From: Desulfosarcina sp.
GTDB lineage: Bacteria > Desulfobacterota > Desulfobacteria > Desulfobacterales > JAFDCJ01
DNA length: 45,950 bases
NCBI GenBank assembly: GCA_029288035.1
Contig: JARFPZ010000527.1
Coordinates: 1 to 45,950 of the forward strand
Direction of reading: 5' to 3'
Each line of letters opens with the position of its first letter. The first letter of the stretch is position 1. The notes under the pieces were generated by a model. That model was not told the DNA's origin. It did not search any database and saw nothing but the letters and a program-made list of their open reading frames with translations. Shown here piece after piece: positions 1 to 45,691 of this stretch. Position numbers and translations under genes: made by a program.

Positions 1-90
1 TTCCAGCATGGCCTGGGATATTTTGGCTTTGGATAATCCTACATTCATTCCTGCTCTTCTCATCTCTCCGAACATTTTTTTGCTGAACAT
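1..90 (-). CDS. partial ORF running off the left edge (MFSKKMFGEMRRAGMNVGLSKAKISQAMLE...), probable gene of a fifth cassette
   Basis: ATG at 88-90 (minus) preceded by GGAGGTGGCA Shine-Dalgarno; open to the window edge; lies downstream (minus sense) of attC-D. Confidence 0.4.
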   Translation of the reverse strand, partial: MFSKKMFGEMRRAGMNVGLSKAKISQAMLE

Positions 91-210
91 TGCCACCTCC
101 TTAGCGATGATTGGGAAATGCATATGTTTATTTGGGTAGGCCTAACGAAAAGTTCAGTTGCAGGCAGGGAATGATGGCCTTTTTAAAAGAGACGGAAACT
201 CCGAATTGAA

Positions 211-262
211 TTATAACGCAACCGCTCGCCCCTGCCTGTCAAACTGAAACGAGATGTTAGGG
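211..262 (-). repeat. attC-D, degenerate integron attC site
   Basis: Minus strand CCCTAAC (R'') ... GTTATAA (R'-like) directly after the stop of the 264-887 ORF; R'' is the exact reverse complement of the GTTAGGG at the 5' end of the same cassette. Confidence 0.55.
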
Positions 263-263
263 T

Positions 264-887
264 TTATAGTTTTTTGACATAGCATTCAAAATGCGGTTTT
301 TCCCTGAAGACTTTATCGTGTCTTCTTGGTTCACCACCTACAGCATGGATTAATTTAACAAGACGTTCAGCAGTGTAGCCCTCTGGCATATCAAAAAACA
401 TGGTGTGAAATGTGGTTCCAAAGCAATAATCAGAACCATCGTCCATAACACCAGTAAATTCTGTCCAACCCATTGATGTTTCTCCACCCATTTCACTAAT
501 TCGGGGGACAGGAATTGCATATGGACTTTTATCTAAACTTTTAACATCATAGTCGTTCAAACGGTTACCGGAGCAAACAAATGATTCTACAATTGATCTA
601 TACCCTGCGGATTTGTGGAGTTTCTTGACTTTACGAGTTTCATCAAATCGTTTAATTGCAAGATCAACACATATTTTCGTACTTTTTATAGCAACACATG
701 GAAGATATAACCCGTCATTCAGTATTGCTGAGCATCTATATAAGGGAGAACCATCATAGTCCTTTAAAGGCTTGATGCTCTTTTTCACGTATTTGATAAT
801 CTCTTTACTTTCCATAAATATCGGAACCCTAACGTCTAAGCTGACCGACGCGCGGTAGCGCGTTCGGTCCAGCGCCTTGTTCGACAA
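264..887 (-). CDS. hypothetical cassette-borne protein; likely true start at 815 (MESKEIIKYVKKSIKPLKDY...) because the 5' part of the ORF overlaps attC-C
   Basis: ORF track; first ~24 codons translate through the attC site. Confidence 0.6.
   Translation of the reverse strand: MSNKALDRTRYRASVSLDVRVPIFMESKEIIKYVKKSIKPLKDYDGSPLYRCSAILNDGLYLPCVAIKSTKICVDLAIKRFDETRKVKKLHKSAGYRSIVESFVCSGNRLNDYDVKSLDKSPYAIPVPRISEMGGETSMGWTEFTGVMDDGSDYCFGTTFHTMFFDMPEGYTAERLVKLIHAVGGEPRRHDKVFREKPHFECYVKKL
827..885 (-). repeat. attC-C (59 bp) after sulfatase 1
   Basis: Minus strand GTCGAAC-AAGGCGCTGGACCGAACGCG...CGCGTCGGTCAGCTTAGAC-GTTAGGG: R''/R' boxes plus imperfect inverted L''/L' arms (GGCGCTGGACCGAACGCG vs CGCGTCGGTCAGC). 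Confidence 0.8.
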
Positions 888-944
888 TTTGGTTTTCTGT
901 CCGTTGTATCAGCTTAGGCCTTGGCCGGCAGGGATTGGTTACAA

Positions 945-3311
945 TCAGCGAACAAGCCTCACGTGGAACTTGTTGATTTCTCCTTCCAATTCGAAGGGCC
1001 GGCGGTCCATGTAGTCGAGCGAGACGGTCGATCCAAGGTCGGCACCAACGTCGAAGGTTTCACTGGCGGAGAAGGCGGCGGGCACGGTGCGTTTGAGCTC
1101 GGTCTTTCCGACCTCCCGGTCATTCACGAATAGGGTGACGGTGCCTTCCCGGCCGGGACCCGCGATGTCGGTGTTCACAACGATCTTGTGCCTGCCGGCG
1201 CTGAGCGGCTCGCGGCTACGCGTCTCGTGCTGTTCGATGATCATCATGTTGTAGAGATAGACGAGGTGTCCGTCCTCAAGGTATAGCGTCACCCCGCCCG
1301 CCGAGCCGCCCAGGGCGTAGAGCACGCCGTTGGCCTTCTCCGGCACCTCGAGCTCGATTTCGACGATCGTGCTTTCGCGTCCGACGCCGGGAGCGGTGAA
1401 CTCGGGCATTCGGCGGGTGTTGGCGTTGAAGGTCCATTGGGAATAGGGAGTCTTCACGCGGTCCTCCGGATGCATGCGCAGCCAGTTGCCGGCACCGATC
1501 GGGAAGCCCTGATTCTCCTCGGCGAGGGCAAGGAACTCCTTCTTCAGTTCCTCAAGCTTGTCGGGATGCTCGGCAGCGAGGTTGCGGGCTTGGGAGAAGT
1601 CCCCGGCCACATGGTAGAGCTCCCACTCATCGGTTGCGGAGTCCCACTGGGCGATGCGCGGAGCCGACGCCGCGGTGTTCCACGGTAGCAGGGGGCCAAA
1701 GGTGCAGGCGACCCAGCCGTCCTTGTAGATCGCGCGGCTGCCGTTGTTGTCGAAATACTGGATGGCGTTGGTCGACCCGGCGTCGGCGTCGCTGAAGGTG
1801 TAGGCCAGGCTGGCCCCGTCGATCTTGATCTGGTCATGGCCGTTGACGATCTCCGGCGGGTCGATGCCGAGGATCTCGTAGATGGTCGGGGCGATGTCCA
1901 CCACATGGTGGAACTGCGAACGCATCCGCTTGTCCGGCTGGATTCCCTTGGGCCAGGAAACGACCATCGGGTTGCGCGTGCCCCCGAAGTGGGAGGCAAC
2001 GAGCTTGGTGGCCTTGAACGGCGTGCTGCCCGCCCAGGCCCAGCCGGCGTGATACATGTTGTCGGTCTTCGGCGAGCCCAGCGCCTCGAGCCCGCCAAGT
2101 TTGTCCAGAGCGGCGAGCTGCTGCTCGACGGTGTTGGAGATGTTGTTCTGCGCGAGCAACTCGCTGATCGACCCCTCCTGGCCCTCGGCGCTCGATCCGT
2201 TGTCGCCGAAGATGTAGAAGATGAGTGTGTTCTCGCGCAGCCCGCGCTGGTCGAGCCCCTCGACCAGGCGGCCGACCTGGACGTCGGTGTGCTCGACGAA
2301 GCCGGCGAAGATTTCCATCCCGCGGCGCTGGAAGGCGCGCTGGTTCTCGGGGATGTCGTCCCAGGCAGTCATCGTCTCGTCGCGAGGGGTCAGCTCGGTG
2401 CCGGGCGGGATGATGCCCATCTCGAGCTGGCGCTGGTGGACCCGCTCCCGGTAGGCTTCCCAGCCGTCGTCGAACTTGCCTTTGTATTTGTCGGCCCACT
2501 CCGACCAGATGTGGTGCGGCCCGTGGGCCGCGCCGGGTGCCCAGTACATCAGGAACGGCTTGTCGGGGGCGAAGGACTGGTGCTGGTCGAGCCAGGTGAG
2601 CGCCTTGTCCACCATGTCCTCGGTGAGGTGATAACGTTCGTCGTGGGGCGGCTCGACGGTGTCGTAGTTTTCGACCAACCGCGGTTCCCACTGCGAGGTT
2701 TCACCGGCGAGGAAGCCGTAGAAGTACTCAAATCCGTAGCCGTTCGGCCAGCGGTCCTTGGGGCCGATCGCCGTGGTCTCAGTGGCGGGCGTGTTGTGCC
2801 ACTTGCCGAAGGCCGAGGTGTGGTAGCCGTATTGCTTGAGCACCTCGGCGACGGTGGCGGCCGACTTGGGGATGATGCCGGTGTAGCCGTCGAAGGCGAC
2901 CGCACGCTCGGCGATCGTGCCGGAACCGACGCGGGTGTGGTTGCGCCCGGTAAGCAGCGAGGCACGGGTCGGCGAGCAGATCGCGGTGGTGTGAAAAGAA
3001 TTGTAGCTCAAGCCCTCGTCGGCGAGCTTGCTCAGGGTTGGGGTGTGCACCTCCCCGCCGAAGGTGTCGGCGACTCCGAAGCCGACGTCATCGATCAGCA
3101 CGATCAGGATGTTGGGTGCGTCAGCGGGCAGGCGGGAGGGTTCCTGCGGCCATTGCATTTTCGAATCCTGCAGGCGTGGCTTGGCCACGCTGGCGCTCAT
3201 CGGGGTCGGTGGAAAGGGGAGGACCGAGCCGTCGTTTGGAGTTTCCGCGACGGCCCCGGTGGTCAGTGCGAGGAGGGTGAGCAGTGTTTTCACGATGGGC
3301 TTGGGTTTCAT
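945..3311 (-). CDS. arylsulfatase (type I, formylglycine-dependent), predicted exported
   Basis: Signal peptide MKPKPIVKTLLTLLALTTGAVA; NILIVLIDDVGFG metal-binding motif; CSPTRASLLTGR sulfatase signature (C-X-P-X-R); C-terminal beta-rich domain. Confidence 0.92.
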   Translation of the reverse strand: MKPKPIVKTLLTLLALTTGAVAETPNDGSVLPFPPTPMSASVAKPRLQDSKMQWPQEPSRLPADAPNILIVLIDDVGFGVADTFGGEVHTPTLSKLADEGLSYNSFHTTAICSPTRASLLTGRNHTRVGSGTIAERAVAFDGYTGIIPKSAATVAEVLKQYGYHTSAFGKWHNTPATETTAIGPKDRWPNGYGFEYFYGFLAGETSQWEPRLVENYDTVEPPHDERYHLTEDMVDKALTWLDQHQSFAPDKPFLMYWAPGAAHGPHHIWSEWADKYKGKFDDGWEAYRERVHQRQLEMGIIPPGTELTPRDETMTAWDDIPENQRAFQRRGMEIFAGFVEHTDVQVGRLVEGLDQRGLRENTLIFYIFGDNGSSAEGQEGSISELLAQNNISNTVEQQLAALDKLGGLEALGSPKTDNMYHAGWAWAGSTPFKATKLVASHFGGTRNPMVVSWPKGIQPDKRMRSQFHHVVDIAPTIYEILGIDPPEIVNGHDQIKIDGASLAYTFSDADAGSTNAIQYFDNNGSRAIYKDGWVACTFGPLLPWNTAASAPRIAQWDSATDEWELYHVAGDFSQARNLAAEHPDKLEELKKEFLALAEENQGFPIGAGNWLRMHPEDRVKTPYSQWTFNANTRRMPEFTAPGVGRESTIVEIELEVPEKANGVLYALGGSAGGVTLYLEDGHLVYLYNMMIIEQHETRSREPLSAGRHKIVVNTDIAGPGREGTVTLFVNDREVGKTELKRTVPAAFSASETFDVGADLGSTVSLDYMDRRPFELEGEINKFHVRLVR

Positions 3312-3573
3312 GATGCTTTTGACCTTTTTTAATATATTTTGTTAATTTTATGAGCTTTTTTTCATCAAGTCGATCTTCAATCATCCACGACTCGAGATAG
3401 TCAGCTTGGTCATAGAGAATATTTTGAGCAAAGGTAAATGCCTTATTAAGATATTCTTTTTCGTTTTTACATTTTGTGGCAAGAACTCCAAAATCAGTTT
3501 TCATGAAATCTGATATTTCATTTGCCAAAACAATAATTTGATAGGATTCAATACTTAGATCATCGGTGTCCAT
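3312..3573 (-). pseudogene. 5' part of a small cassette ORF (MDTDDLSIESYQIIVLANEISDFMKTDFGVLATK...), apparently truncated by fusion to sulfatase 1
   Basis: ORF 3121-3573 reads out of frame into the sulfatase 1 coding sequence from about 3311-3340; abrupt change from AT-rich to GC-rich. Confidence 0.55.
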
Positions 3574-3581
3574 TTTTTTAT

Positions 3582-3685
3582 TGCTAACGTCGCCGGTGAG
3601 CAGCGGCCCAAATTCATATCAAACCTGCACGGACTTTACGTAAAACCGCGATCTTCACGCCGTCTGCTTAACTGGCTTGTTGGGC
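3582..3685 (-). repeat. attC-B (about 104 bp) after HigBA
   Basis: Minus strand GCCCAAC-AAGCCAGTTAAGCAGACG ... CGCTGCTCACCGGCGAC-GTTAGCA; arms GCCAGTTAAGCAG / CTGCTCACCGGC pair imperfectly. Confidence 0.85.
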
Positions 3686-3979
3686 AACATGCTCAGACCA
3701 AGGCTTAATTTTTTGTATTACATTATCCAAAGTACGTTCTGCAACTTCAGTATCGTGTGCTGCTTGAGCCCGCAGCCAATACCCATTGGACAAACCGAAA
3801 AAACGACATAACCGCAAATCGGTATCGGCTGTGACCGAACGTTTTCCAGATACAATTTCGCTGATGCGCTGGGCAGGAACACCAATTTCCTTGGCCAAAC
3901 GATACTGGCTAATACCCATAGGTTTGAGAAACTCTTCTAAAAGAATTTCACCAGGAGTGATAGGTTTAAGTTGGTTCAT
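3668..3979 (-). CDS. higA: HigA-family addiction-module antitoxin (XRE HTH)
   Basis: ITPGEILLEEFLKPMGISQYRLAKEIGVPAQRISEIVSGKRSVTADTDLRLCRFFG is typical of HigA. Confidence 0.9.
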   Translation of the reverse strand: MNQLKPITPGEILLEEFLKPMGISQYRLAKEIGVPAQRISEIVSGKRSVTADTDLRLCRFFGLSNGYWLRAQAAHDTEVAERTLDNVIQKIKPWSEHVAQQAS

Positions 3980-3991
3980 AGTAAATCCTCC

Positions 3992-4270
3992 TCAGTGGCA
4001 ATCAACTATTTCCACATCTTCCGCACCTGCATTCGTCCAACAAAAACAGACACGCCACTGATTATTAATGCGAATGCTATGTTGGCCGGAACGGTCACCT
4101 TTGAGTGCTTCAAGATGATTTCCGGGCGGAACTTTCAAATCATCAATTCGATTAGCGATCTCAAGCTGTCTGAGCTTACGCCGTGCAACATTTGCAATAT
4201 TTACAAATTGTTTGACATGCTGGCCTTTTGAGAGCGCTTCTGTATATTTGCATTTAAAGGATTTTATCAT
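3992..4270 (-). CDS. higB: HigB/RelE-family toxin
   Basis: IKSFKCKYTEAL...RKLRQLEIANRIDDLKVPPGNHLEALKGDRSGQHSIRINNQWRVCF; adjacent to higA. Confidence 0.9.
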   Translation of the reverse strand: MIKSFKCKYTEALSKGQHVKQFVNIANVARRKLRQLEIANRIDDLKVPPGNHLEALKGDRSGQHSIRINNQWRVCFCWTNAGAEDVEIVDCH

Positions 4271-4318
4271 GTGATATAATAACGCATAGCATGATTAACG
4301 TCAAGCGTGACTATTGAT

Positions 4319-4393
4319 GCCCAACGCTCAGCATAGCCGGCTGGTAATGGAGCGCAGCGAAATTGCCAGTCCGAGTTAATACGATTGTTCGAC
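4319..4393 (-). repeat. attC-A (75 bp) after sulfatase 2
   Basis: Minus strand GTCGAAC-AATCGTATTAACTCGGACTGGCAAT...ATTACCAGCCGGCTATGCTGAGC-GTTGGGC. Confidence 0.8.
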
Positions 4394-4438
4394 AATAGTT
4401 GCCAATAGGGGACTGAGCGTAATATACGACTGTTTACT

Positions 4439-6016
4439 TTACAGCCCGATGTTCTTGGGCGGATAATTCTTGAAGGTGGCACCGTGTTCCTTCAACTTTC
4501 CGAGTACCGTCGCCATCCAAGGGTCAAGGCGGTGGCCGACGGTCATCTCCTCCTTTGGGTCAAGGTAGAGATTGAAAAACCACGGTGCAAGACCGACATC
4601 GTGAACAGTAGAGAGGTCGATGTGCATGTGCGGAGCCTGGGGCATGATGACCTTCGTGTGCACTTTATACTCCTTCATGCGACACGCCATAAGCTCTTTA
4701 CCCCACCAAAAATAAACAGCTTCTCGCTTTGATCTGCCATCTTCGACGAGAAGGAATGATGTCTGATCGATAAAATCGTAGTATTTATCAGTCGGTAGCT
4801 TATCTGTGGAGACACCGGCGATGTTAAGTCCGACGCCAAAAAGGTCCATCAGGTCGAAGAGCCCGTCACTGGTTCGACCGGGTGCGATCATTCCTTCCCA
4901 ATAGGCAATGCCCGGAACGCGAACCCCACCTTCCCAAGTCGTGCCCTTTGCACCGCGAAATGGCGTGTAGCCCGCGTCCGGCCATCCATCCATTTGTGGG
5001 CCATTGTCAGAGGTGAAAAAGACCAGTGTATTATCAAGCACACCTGCGTCGTCAAGAGTCTTGAGGATGGCTCCAACATGGGCGTCCACCTCATGGACAC
5101 CGTCTTTATATGGATACTTCGCTTCACTTTTTCCGGCATAGTCGGGGTGGGCAAAATTATCGCTATGGACTTTCATGAAGCAGTGTTCAATAAAAAATGG
5201 CTTTTCTCCGGCAGCGAGTTCCTTAATCCGCTGAACGGTGAAGTTTGTCAGCACCTGGTCAGCTTTGCTCATGTCTTCAATCGATTTTATCTGCTTCAGC
5301 TCTTCAGTCTTACCTCCCTTGAATCCGTGGGTGAGATAATCTGTAGGACCAACCGCCTCAAAGGCAGCCATGCGCTTAGGGTTGAGCACAAGGCCGGGGA
5401 AGCGCCGGCTGTCGACGCGCTGGGAGATTTCCTTTTGGGCAGGGTAATACCCGTAGTATTCGTCGAAGCCAATGTCGTGCGGTCTCATGCCTATGGACTC
5501 ACCAACGTGCCACTTTCCGGTGAGAAGGGTGAAGTAACCGGCTTCGCTCAATAGCTTTGGCAGGCTGATCTCGTCCGCCCAGGGATTGACGGTAATCTTG
5601 TCGCCAGCAAGAATTGGCCGTATAAGGCCGGTGCGCACTGGTAGTCGACCGGTAAGGATAGCCGACCGGGTTGGCGTGCAGGTCTGCTGAGAGTATGTGG
5701 AAGTAAGCTTCATCCCCTTTGCAGCAAGTTTGTCGATATTCGGTGTCGAGGCGCCTGCCAGGGCACCTCCTCCATAGGTGCCAGGATCGCCAAAGCCCAT
5801 ATCATCGACAACGAGCCATACGATATTGGGCCGCTTGCCTTTCTTTTTTTGCAGTGCAGCAAGTTTTTCTTCAGCGATCTTATCTTGCTCAGGACGAGGT
5901 ATAGCTGTTTCGAAGTTATCAGCGAATCTCACTGAGAGGTCGAACTTGGGTACTTCCTGACCCCATCCATTTACCGAAACACAAAGGGTGACTAGTACAA
6001 TCAAATATCGATACAT
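4439..6016 (-). CDS. arylsulfatase (type I, formylglycine-dependent), predicted exported
   Basis: Signal peptide MYRYLIVLVTLCVSVNGWG; NIVWLVVDDMGFGDPGTYGGG; CTPTRSAILTGRLPVRTG signature; TSDNGP motif. Confidence 0.93.
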   Translation of the reverse strand: MYRYLIVLVTLCVSVNGWGQEVPKFDLSVRFADNFETAIPRPEQDKIAEEKLAALQKKKGKRPNIVWLVVDDMGFGDPGTYGGGALAGASTPNIDKLAAKGMKLTSTYSQQTCTPTRSAILTGRLPVRTGLIRPILAGDKITVNPWADEISLPKLLSEAGYFTLLTGKWHVGESIGMRPHDIGFDEYYGYYPAQKEISQRVDSRRFPGLVLNPKRMAAFEAVGPTDYLTHGFKGGKTEELKQIKSIEDMSKADQVLTNFTVQRIKELAAGEKPFFIEHCFMKVHSDNFAHPDYAGKSEAKYPYKDGVHEVDAHVGAILKTLDDAGVLDNTLVFFTSDNGPQMDGWPDAGYTPFRGAKGTTWEGGVRVPGIAYWEGMIAPGRTSDGLFDLMDLFGVGLNIAGVSTDKLPTDKYYDFIDQTSFLLVEDGRSKREAVYFWWGKELMACRMKEYKVHTKVIMPQAPHMHIDLSTVHDVGLAPWFFNLYLDPKEEMTVGHRLDPWMATVLGKLKEHGATFKNYPPKNIGL

Positions 6017-6029
6017 TTTCCCTCCTTTT

Positions 6030-6036
6030 GTCGAAC
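6030..6036 (-). other. first cassette insertion point / attI core (G|TTCGAC)
   Basis: Minus GTTCGAC 13 bp upstream of the sulfatase 2 ATG; exact reverse complement of the R'' box of the same cassette in attC-A (GTCGAAC). Confidence 0.65.
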
Positions 6037-6156
6037 AATTGAGTAGTGCGAAAAAGGTCGCAATATCAACAACGAAAATCCAATTGTAAAAATAAATGTT
6101 TAATTAATATTTTTACATAAACGACATCCGATAACATATTGAAACCGGAAAAATGC

Positions 6157-6252
6157 GAATTTTTTCTCAATATCCCAATATGCGGGAATTTTTTCTCGAT
6201 ATCCACTATATCCGGGTGATATTGAGAAAAATTGCGTCATATTAAGAAAAGG
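6157..6252. promoter_or_regulatory. repeated operator-like elements in the attI / PintI / Pc region
   Basis: GAATTTTTTCTCAATATCC (6157-6175), GAATTTTTTCTCGATATCC (6186-6204), inverted GATATTGAGAAAAATT (6218-6233), weaker CATATTAAGAAAAG (6239-6252). Confidence 0.5.
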
Positions 6253-6399
6253 CTTGCATTTTTAATTTATATAATGTAAATATATATGTCAATAATTAAT
6301 TACACTAAATGTGTTTACACATAAGGTTTGTTTCATTTTTTAGCTGTCAGGATAATAACTATTATAATCAATTAACTACCTAAAAATCAAGGAGATATT

Positions 6400-7045
6400 A
6401 TGGAAAGACCACCGGCCAAGCTGCTTGATAGAGTCAGGCATCGTATTCGGCTAAAAGGTTATTCCATTCGCACCGAACAATCTTATGTTAGCTGGGTTCG
6501 GCGATTTATCCTCTTCCATAATAGGCGTCATCATGAACGAAATCATGGTCCGTGATGGAAAAGGAAAAATAGATCGTGTTACCATACTACCCAATGACAT
6601 AAAGGAGTCTCTGCAAAAGCATCTTATATTCATAAAACAGTTGCATGAAAACGATTTTTCGAAAGGATTTGGTCGCGTTTATCTACCCTATGCATTGGCA
6701 AAAAAATACAAAAACGCCGACAGGGAATTCGCCTGGCAATATGTGTTTCCAGCCAAGACCATTTCCATTGACCCAAGAAGCGGTATCAAGCGGCGTCATC
6801 ACATTCATCAGAGTAGTTTAAATAAAGCGGTCAAGAAGGCTGCGAAAATGGCCCGGATTAATAAACTTATCAGCTGTCACACCTTTCGTCACAGCTTCGC
6901 CAGCCATCTTTTACAGGACGGATATGATATCCGCACGGTGCAAGACCTCCTAAACCACAAAGACGTCAGCACCACCATGATTTACACCCATGTTCTCAAT
7001 CGTGGCGGTAGAGGAGTGAGAAGTCCACTGGACGTCGGGCAATAA
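6400..7045 (+). pseudogene. intI: integron integrase IntI, inactivated by an internal deletion plus frame change
   Basis: N-terminus [45 protein letters not shown] (frame of 6400, stop at 6553-6555); C-terminal half in another frame: [19 protein letters not shown]...[25 protein letters not shown]...[52 protein letters not shown]. Confidence 0.92.
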
Positions 7046-7832: not shown

Positions 7833-8159
7833 TTTTAATTACTTTATTTTGACAGGATTTACAGGATCAACTGGATATTTATTTAAAGGTTGAATGGTTC
7901 AAAATTCAACGTTCCGGGTTGAATAAACTCAGACGGAACCGTTCACAGGTTTAGGGTTCAACGTTCAGGGTTAAGGACAAAGAAGACATTGAAGACCCGA
8001 GTTCCTCGTTAATAATTCTCATTTTCCCAATTAATTACCAATTTTTCTCCAAATTTTGGATCAGACCTAACGAAGCTGACGGTTTTCTTGTAAACACGCA
8101 TCTCAACTGCAGTCCAGAGACGAGAATGGAACCCTGAACCCCGAACCTCTCGGTTTAGA

Positions 8160-14025: not shown

Positions 14026-14090
14026 AATGCTGATTTGCTTTATTGGATGTTAAGATCTGTATTACCAACCCGGATAAACCAGATATAATT

Positions 14091-14163
14091 GCCACAAAGG
14101 CACCAAGACACAAACAAAAACTTTTTATGAGAATTTAACTTCGTGTCTTGGTGCCTTGGTGGC
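14091..14163. repeat. intergenic inverted repeat / hairpin
   Basis: GCCACAAAGGCACCAAGACAC ... GTGTCTTGGTGCCTTGGTGGC. Confidence 0.85.
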
Positions 14164-14230
14164 GAAAATATTCTGTTAAATAACGTAAACGGAACAAAAT
14201 TAAAAGTCTAAAAAAGGTATGATCGGTTAA

Positions 14231-41539: not shown

Positions 41540-43825
41540 TTATGGACACCTCTTTCTTGCATTTAATTCAACCCACTGTTCTGCCGGCGTTTCCAAAAGA
41601 TGCGGCATTTTGTTTTCTATTTCATTAAGTAGGATCGCATCGAGATCTGCCTTATAGAGGGTTTTTACGGCAGCTAGCTTCTTGGCCGTCAGATTTTTTG
41701 CGCCCGCTAATTTGGCGCATCGCAGATCAGCATCATGGAGATTGACTTCCTCTAAATCTGCTCCAGAGAATTGCGCCAATCCGAGGTTTGCATTTTGAAA
41801 CTGCGCGCCGACCAGAAGCGCATTCATTAGGTTGGCTTCCCTGAGGTCTGCGCCCTTAAGGTTGGCCCCTGTGAGGTCCGAGTGTTGAAGATTTGCCTGT
41901 CTCATGTCGGCAGCTTGAAAATTGACTTTTCTGAGTCTGGCGCCTTCCATGTTTACCCGTCTGAGAATCGCTTTGGCGAGAAACGCTCGAAACATATCTG
42001 CATATCTCAGGTCTTTCTTTTTGAGAAAAGCACCTGTAACGGAATTTATCCGATCTAGTTCATTTTCGATTCTCCAGAAATCCCCTGGCCTGGATGAAAC
42101 ATCGACCTCCCTGATATCTGCGAATACATCGTAGCCAAGCTTAAGAAAGAGCCATGGCACGGTGCTTTTTAAGTTCGTAAAATCGGGCTGATCGGATCGA
42201 ATGCCGTTGATTGCACCATAGGAGAGAACCCACATAAGGATTCCCGCGGTTCCAAGAATTAGGCCATAACGAAATTTTCTGAAGCGCCAGACACTGCTGA
42301 AACCAAAGCGACGGTTAGCGGTTCCATTTAAATTGTTTACAGATAATTGATAAAAGCCGAGGGCGGCTGCGAGTGCAGCAAAAAATAATAGGATGTGAAG
42401 TCCTGTGCCGATCCAATCGCGTCGCGGAAGATACCTTATCCAAAACCCCATCAGCGTAATCGGAACGGCCCACCAACCAATCAGAATTGCCGATTTTTCT
42501 TCCAATTTGGCAATTATCGAACGCTGTTTTTTCAAAATTTTGAAATTACGGCGGACAAAGCAATTCAAAAACCAGCGATGCAACTTCTTGGGTAACGATG
42601 CTCCATCAGGAAATATTGCCGGCAGGGTACCCATGCTTTCCCAAATGCGCTGCATATAGAGATGGAAGAATACATAAATGGATATCAGAATTAATGGCAC
42701 GACCATATATAAGGGTTGCGTCAGAAATTGGTCACCGACCAGCGGCAGATACATCGAAGACGTATTGGTGAATAGTCCAACATCGGTGGTTTTTACGATA
42801 ATTAACCAAGAAAACGCACATACTATAATTAATGCATAAAAAATTTTGCGCGCACTTTTGGATGCTTCCTCAATGAGGTTCAACGTATTGAAATTGCCGA
42901 TATCTTTTGGCAATTTGGCTCTGGTGAGATCGGAACGCGCAAAATCAGCACTGAGAAGTCCACTGGCGCCTTCAAAGTCAGCACCAGATAGGTTTGTATC
43001 ATCCAGCCCGATGACGCCGGCCAAATTTGCGCCGCTGAAATATGTTTCAAGGAGTAAGGCATCTTTTAGGTTGGCATTGCTTAGATTGCTGTCCTCTAGG
43101 TTGGTTCTTGTCAGAATCGCCTCGGTCAAGTTGGCACTTTCTAGGTTGGCTTTGCTTAGGTTCGCCCCAGCCAAATCGGCCTTGGCTAAATCAGCGTCGG
43201 ACAGATTGAGCCTCGATAAATCAGCATTTGCAAGATCGGCTTGTTGACCTTCCTCGGATCCACTTTTGATCCATCTGGAATGCTTTTCCAAGATAGACGC
43301 TAACTCTGATTGTCCAATTTTTTTCACAGCAAGAGGCCTTGCTGAGTCATCCGGCAAAGGGGGCTCCGTGCGTTGATCGATGGGAGTCTCTCCGCCCTCG
43401 GTGCGTTCGTCATTGTTTACATCGGTGGATGGCGGTTGTGCGAGGATTTGAGCCACATTTTCGATTAGGAATTGAAAGTTTTGAGATGCTTCGGCCGGAT
43501 CCCATTTTATTAGATCTACAGCCTGAATGCGACGAAAACCCATTGGAAGCAAAACGTCTTCGATTATTACTGGAATCAGAATCTCTTTATTAAGTCCCTC
43601 ATCTGCCTCTTCTTTTACCCAATTACTTTTTACTGAATGCTTTGACCATGCCACCACTACGCAGCGTGCGTCCGCAAGTTCTTCTTCAATCACTTGGGAA
43701 AACGTTTTTCCGGGTGGAATCTTTCGATCCCACCAGACCGACCAACCTTGATTTTCGAAGCCCTTTGCAAGTGCTTCTATCTTTTTTCGATCTTCCCGAG
43801 CGTAGCTGATAAAAATATCGCTCAT
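41540..43825 (-). CDS. TIR-domain / pentapeptide-repeat / multi-TM / pentapeptide-repeat protein
   Basis: TIR: SDIFISYAREDRKKIEALAKGFENQGWSVWWDRKIPPGKTFSQVIEEELADARCVVVAWSKHSVKSNWVKEEADEGL; pentapeptides ADLAKADLAGANLSKANLESANL; ~5 hydrophobic helices; second block MRQANLQHSDLTGANLKGADLREANL. Confidence 0.92.
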   Translation of the reverse strand: MSDIFISYAREDRKKIEALAKGFENQGWSVWWDRKIPPGKTFSQVIEEELADARCVVVAWSKHSVKSNWVKEEADEGLNKEILIPVIIEDVLLPMGFRRIQAVDLIKWDPAEASQNFQFLIENVAQILAQPPSTDVNNDERTEGGETPIDQRTEPPLPDDSARPLAVKKIGQSELASILEKHSRWIKSGSEEGQQADLANADLSRLNLSDADLAKADLAGANLSKANLESANLTEAILTRTNLEDSNLSNANLKDALLLETYFSGANLAGVIGLDDTNLSGADFEGASGLLSADFARSDLTRAKLPKDIGNFNTLNLIEEASKSARKIFYALIIVCAFSWLIIVKTTDVGLFTNTSSMYLPLVGDQFLTQPLYMVVPLILISIYVFFHLYMQRIWESMGTLPAIFPDGASLPKKLHRWFLNCFVRRNFKILKKQRSIIAKLEEKSAILIGWWAVPITLMGFWIRYLPRRDWIGTGLHILLFFAALAAALGFYQLSVNNLNGTANRRFGFSSVWRFRKFRYGLILGTAGILMWVLSYGAINGIRSDQPDFTNLKSTVPWLFLKLGYDVFADIREVDVSSRPGDFWRIENELDRINSVTGAFLKKKDLRYADMFRAFLAKAILRRVNMEGARLRKVNFQAADMRQANLQHSDLTGANLKGADLREANLMNALLVGAQFQNANLGLAQFSGADLEEVNLHDADLRCAKLAGAKNLTAKKLAAVKTLYKADLDAILLNEIENKMPHLLETPAEQWVELNARKRCP

Positions 43826-45247: not shown

Positions 45248-45691
45248 ATGCCAAGTTTCGTAATTAATGAAAAATGCGACGGCTGTAAGGGCGGGGATAA
45301 AACCGCTTGTATGTACATTTGCCCCAACGATCTGATGGTTTTAGAACCCAATGAGATGAAGGCTTACAACCAAGAGCCCGATCAATGCTGGGAATGCTTT
45401 TCCTGTGTTAAAATTTGCCCCACCCAAGCTATCGAAGTCAGAGGCTATGCGGACTTTGTTCCTCTGGGAAGCAGCGTCATGCCGATGCTCGGTACCGAGG
45501 ATGTCATGTGGACCTGCAAGTTCCGAAACGGCCTCATCAAACGCTTTAAGTTCCCCATCCGGACGACCCCCGAAGGACAGGCCAATGCGTATCAAGACCT
45601 AAAAGGTCAGGATCTCGAAGGCGAGCTGCTGTCAACCGAAGAAGCAGACGGCGCCGCACTACGTACCCCTGATGCAGGGCAATTGTTTTAA
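45248..45691 (+). CDS. aprB: adenylylsulfate reductase beta subunit
   Basis: MPSFVINEKCDGCKGGDKTACMYICPNDLMVLE...CWECFSCVKICPTQAIEVRGYADFVPLG. Confidence 0.98.
   Translation: MPSFVINEKCDGCKGGDKTACMYICPNDLMVLEPNEMKAYNQEPDQCWECFSCVKICPTQAIEVRGYADFVPLGSSVMPMLGTEDVMWTCKFRNGLIKRFKFPIRTTPEGQANAYQDLKGQDLEGELLSTEEADGAALRTPDAGQLF

Follow-up and report, generated by a model that had tools for sequence, protein, structure and literature searches.

Desulfobacterota is a known host phylum of sedentary chromosomal integrons (PMC8618304, PMC9668308), and integrase genes have decayed so commonly that about one third of the intI genes surveyed are pseudogenes (PMC2426708). As for cargo, the sulfatase cassette described here, at 1.7 kb, comes close to the upper end of the annotated sizes that PMC8352920 implies. 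The closest described relative of its product by structure is PsFucS1 (PDB 7AJ0), the first characterised S1_13 sulfatase, which is active on fucoidan oligosaccharides and whose description places it in a Pseudoalteromonas genome and not in a cassette (PMC8484680). In the open-access literature searched, no description of a cassette with a full exported sulfatase was found. The way in which free genes are turned into integron cassettes has, to our knowledge, long been an unsolved question.

The locus analysed here lies in a window of 45,950 nucleotides, which is the whole of one contig (C517) of a MAG that totals 6.68 Mb over 689 contigs, with a completeness of 93% and an estimated contamination of 6.7%. 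It resembles sedentary chromosomal integrons in having an intI gene, an array in one orientation, a lineage-wide attC type, a toxin-antitoxin cassette and an integrase pseudogene. It differs from them in that its cargo is a large, probably exported, carbohydrate-type sulfatase, which widens the known range of cassette cargo, and in that a short array mixes several unlike attC types. The best explanation of the whole is very probably that a chromosomal integron captured a planctomycete-type sulfatase cassette and that the local intI died thereafter.

The sulfatase cassette and its attC site

The stretch 4325-6035 (minus strand, 1,711 bp) is a genuine, horizontally acquired, single-gene integron cassette in first position. 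Its limits, taken from cut point to cut point, are set exactly by the core boxes, since GTTCGAC, the 5' box, begins at 6036 and GTTGGGC, the 3' box, stands at 4325. All seven bases of the R'' box GTCGAAC (4393-4387) complement the cassette's own R' GTTCGAC, so that the matched core boxes reported in an earlier note on this DNA are upheld; cassettes 2 and 4 likewise show perfect R''/R' pairing. Against the RYYYAAC/GTTRRRY consensus, the R'' and R' of cassette 1 each deviate at one position. The cassette lies beside the attI region, and the array is read away from intI on the minus strand. A ribosome-binding site, given earlier as GGAGGG, is present as AGGAGGG ahead of the sulfatase ATG, which is 13 nt beyond the core but 19 nt from the cut point; the earlier distance of 13 nt is thus right only when counted from the core. 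Likewise, the sulfatase is alone in its own cassette but not in the array, where cassette 3 carries a second one of 788 aa (945-3311). The neighbouring HigBA cassette (cassette 2) recurs in a genus-mate (G005) with unrelated DNA upstream, and the homology ends at the GTT core at 4325; the comparison of the two arrays exposes a recombination junction for the 3' boundary of cassette 1 only. Complementary cores, a recognised attC family and a junction against another array together bear out the proposal that a complete, probably exported sulfatase occupies a true first-position cassette.

The attC of this cassette (attC1, 4319-4393, minus strand, R'' GTCGAAC ... R' GTTGGGC) belongs to a phylum-wide family. 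As a scan for cores plus stem gave 36 matches in the chromosomal part of the window and was insufficiently specific alone, attC sites were called with family models instead. An HMM trained on 11 attC sites that came from other genomes, with the window copy left out, had its sole match in the window at 4393-4321 (E=2e-23). When attC1 and attC3 were joined as a query, with two candidates scored per genome, 62 of 396 host-phylum genomes were matched, mostly to attC1, and the best relatives showed 85-91% identity over about 70 nt; judged by these matches, the attC1 type is widespread in the host's own phylum. Copies from many genera are conserved in their inner part and variable in the outer core letters, which is the pattern expected of attC sites and supports the identity of the family. 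Several genomes with attC1-like sites have a further attC at that locus, as arrays do, and no sulfatase cassette was present among the other attC loci retrieved. A search of 72,556 plasmid records gave one attC match, a partial one in Geoalkalibacter (Thermodesulfobacteriota), and an Rfam search of the array gave no match. The family consensus folds into a hairpin whose 5' arm has three bases left unpaired (columns 17, 21 and 25). In attC1 itself several of the family's base pairs are broken; folded as a single sequence, attC1 is no better than its shuffles (z 0.52). This unremarkable folding and the many scan matches in the rest of the window are what one would expect if attC1 were a chance palindrome and the sulfatase an ordinary chromosomal gene. 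Such a reading, to which we give practically no weight, is refuted by the independent and, within the window, unique HMM match, by the conservation of the family with variable ends across genera, and by the junction seen in the genus-mate.

The chromosomal site, the integrase and the rest of the array

On the other side of the attI region lies an intI pseudogene (6401-7045, plus strand). Compared with the intact 334-aa homologue of G005, it keeps residues 7-44 and 154-320, lacks the 109 residues from 45 to 153 and is frameshifted, and it matches the integron-integrase profile in two frames, at profile positions 1-41 and 147-313; the deletion is known from one MAG assembly. The missing segment includes the region of the first catalytic Arg. 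The locus thus lacks the intact intI of a complete functional integron, and the earlier view of the cassette as mobile finds no support in the present state of the adjacent integrase. With its frameshift and large deletion, the gene is not unusual among known intI pseudogenes (PMC2426708). It is unlikely, though not far-fetched, that the cassette still moves, with the array as an active platform served in trans by an intact integrase encoded elsewhere in the genome: two further intI fragments, on contigs C303 (193 aa) and C139 (105 aa), have the usual C-terminal motifs, and attC copies occur on two other contigs, but both are truncated at contig ends and share only 52-56% identity with the local intI, and the pairing of attC1 is weakened.

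The stretch from intI to the first cassette (6036-6400, minus strand, junction at 6036) holds the presumed attI, which is assigned by its position; a short motif, GACCTTTTT, is shared with G005. A TTGACA-type promoter-like site stands at 6292-6264, and the totals of such sites are not clearly above those of shuffled sequences, so that the claim of best expression in first position comes down to one consensus match. In the same gap, GATATYGAGAAAAA occurs in three identical copies within 6161-6231, two of them on the minus strand and one on the plus strand, where 0.05 would be expected by chance allowing one mismatch; they are possibly an operator for intI or Pc.

The chromosomal setting is shared with relatives. 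G005 carries its intact intI beside equivalent sdhB-like and DAO genes, a second genus-mate (G001) has an attC remnant at the sdhB-DAO locus, and in two others (G002 and G007) neither intI nor attC is found beside it. Read from these relatives, the genus has a chromosomal integron site at this locus, which is decaying in the window genome. The same comparison bears on whether the contig might be misbinned or chimeric and the sulfatase foreign to the host, a suspicion that the contamination estimate of the MAG might raise. It is very improbable, as the flanking pair, sdhB and DAO, shows synteny with genus-mates (69-85%), attC2 belongs to a family of the genus, and the HigBA cassette is held in common with G005.

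Cassette 2 (3588-4324, minus strand) encodes a HigB toxin (3992-4270) and a HigA antitoxin (3668-3979), and its counterpart on contig C867 of G005 is 93.8% identical over 742 bp. Its attC (attC2, 3582-3688, minus strand) is a member of an attC family present in six of the genus's eight genomes and matched 33 times in G005. Within the MAG, further copies of this family were found on contig C330 (two) and on C546 (a partial one); the two on C330 (G000, 563-1359, loci L132 and L136) are 0.7 kb apart and represent another piece of a cassette array. Cassette 3 (833-3587, minus strand) begins with GTTAGCA, followed by an AT-rich small ORF (32% GC) and then by the 788-aa sulfatase, which has 64% GC as against 48% for the window, is unrelated to the first sulfatase and has arylsulfatases such as 4cxk and 1hdh as its nearest PDB entries. 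Because its R'' box, GTCGAAC, is mismatched to its own start and fits that of cassette 1, cassette 3 looks like a fusion and is probably a mosaic. Its attC (attC3, 827-885, minus strand) folds better than 198 of 200 shuffles. Cassette 4 (146-832, minus strand), taken together with its attC (140-262, minus strand), contains a 207-aa frame (264-887) of unknown family whose start reaches into attC3, and of cassette 5 (1-145, minus strand) only the start remains, cut by the contig end.

Origin of the sulfatase gene and of its attC

A scan of 85,462 species yielded 50 loci with homologues of the 525-aa sulfatase, the best of them full-length, 82% identical and from Planctomycetota. In the tree the protein is nested in a five-member planctomycete clade (support 99/96, 82-83% identity), with that of Rhodopirellula sallentina as the nearest. 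The planctomycete sulfatases (L025-L028, about 82%) are the same protein, alignable over all 525 residues, but they stand without cassette boxes and without an attC of the attC1 type nearby. Among 58 host relatives, the best homologues outside the host's own genome reach 47% and 35% identity, and the same sulfatase as a fixed gene free of attC and attI, which the earlier note had named as evidence against a cassette, is therefore not found in the kin of the host. The near homologues belong to other phyla and are ordinary genes there, which indicates capture and not a false cassette. On plasmids no close relative of the sulfatase was found, the one homologue having 63% identity. Against four planctomycete homologues, dN is about 0.10-0.12 and dS at least 1.8 where computable, which shows purifying selection along the compared branches, of which most of the length may predate the transfer.

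The attC appears to have a different history. None of the 50 homologue loci has a site of the attC1 family around the sulfatase gene, and the 26 genomes bearing homologues gave only weak short matches and no attC1-type site; gene and attC are thus apparently of different origin, and the comparison suggests that they come from different phyla. The attC-like matches of the core-plus-stem scan near three of the homologues (L025, L033 and L048) are very probably due to chance, given that the model of the attC1 family finds none in the 50 loci; beside a homologue, an attC of some other family is still conceivable. Around the homologues, the noncoding sequence has diverged too far to place the site of capture. 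As the relatives of the cargo lie in one phylum and those of the attC in another, it should in principle be possible to bracket the event that joined the two.

A chromosomal integron beside an sdhB-like gene, in a genus of a sulfate-reducing order, would then have gained the planctomycete-type sulfatase as a cassette bearing an attC of the type widespread in the host phylum. Insertion at attI would have put the sulfatase first in the array, in an orientation readable from an upstream promoter. The local intI would later have lost about a third of its length together with its reading frame, leaving the cassette frozen, presumably, unless it is moved in trans by an integrase from another part of the genome. 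We offer it only as a tentative idea that the joining of a planctomycete sulfatase to a host-phylum attC is a traceable birth of a cassette and a route by which genes for polysaccharide desulfation enter sulfate reducers, with two unrelated sulfatases in one array reflecting selection for desulfation. Under the same idea, the sulfate released could serve sulfate reducers as an electron acceptor. The purposeful shuttling of sulfate-ester catabolism by the integron, which had been proposed earlier, is speculation.

Predicted function and genomic setting

The sulfatase gene (4439-6016, minus strand) is an intact ORF for a probably exported S1-family protein of 525 aa with a hydrophobic N-terminus, a Pfam Sulfatase domain (PF00884, E=1e-47) and the signature CTPTRSAILTGR. 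The S1 signature C/S-x-P-x-R is present as CTPTR at 113, and the metal-binding residues are D71, D72, D337 and N338. PsFucS1 is by far the best PDB match (E=8e-167); the homology runs over the full length, and its calcium and nucleophile residues Asp69, Asp70, Cys111, Asp334 and Asn335 correspond to D71, D72, C113, D337 and N338 (PMC8484680). By this likeness in sequence the protein, if it is expressed, exported and matured to formylglycine, is most likely S1_13-like and would act outside the cytoplasm to strip sulfate groups from sulfated sugars.

Maturation is the doubtful step. The earlier note had looked to a formylglycine maturase (anSME or FGE) elsewhere in the genome, and no canonical one was recognised by motif and profile tests in the 93%-complete MAG: there is no anSME above the cut-off, and of six PF03781 matches, five, inspected across their GGS-type motif, have no FGE cysteine pair, and in the sixth no such motif was found. 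A Cys-type sulfatase may therefore stay immature in this host. It is conceivable, but rather doubtful, that the sulfatase is dead cargo, gained by cassette exchange, never matured and retained by the dead integrase and the stabilising toxin-antitoxin cassette. The want of a recognised maturase, the broken intI and the HigBA genes of cassette 2 would fit such a fate; against it speak the intact ORF with all signature residues, the several further sulfatase genes of the same MAG, and a dN far below dS in the comparison with planctomycete homologues, though most of that branch length may predate the transfer.

The host, which looks like a sulfate reducer, most likely belongs to the order Desulfobacterales. 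The order is regarded as sulfate-reducing because dsrA is above the cut-off in 50 of its 57 genomes; in the window MAG itself dsrA was not found. The earlier placement of the cassette near sulfur-metabolism genes is not supported. The neighbours are an sdhB/frdB-like gene, an FAD oxidoreductase and a peptidase, followed by the housekeeping genes pnp, infB, nusA and pheST, and the only sulfur gene recognised among the window genes scanned is aprB at 45248, 39 kb away, the rest being housekeeping or unrelated. The remainder of the window holds an intergenic repeat of about 215 bp (7937-8150) with many copies of up to 89% in its own and related genomes, a 32-bp inverted repeat (14083-14171, 84% complementary, 25 bp apart), and a gene for a 761-aa pentapeptide-repeat protein (41540-43825) whose N-terminus weakly matches TIR-type defence models.
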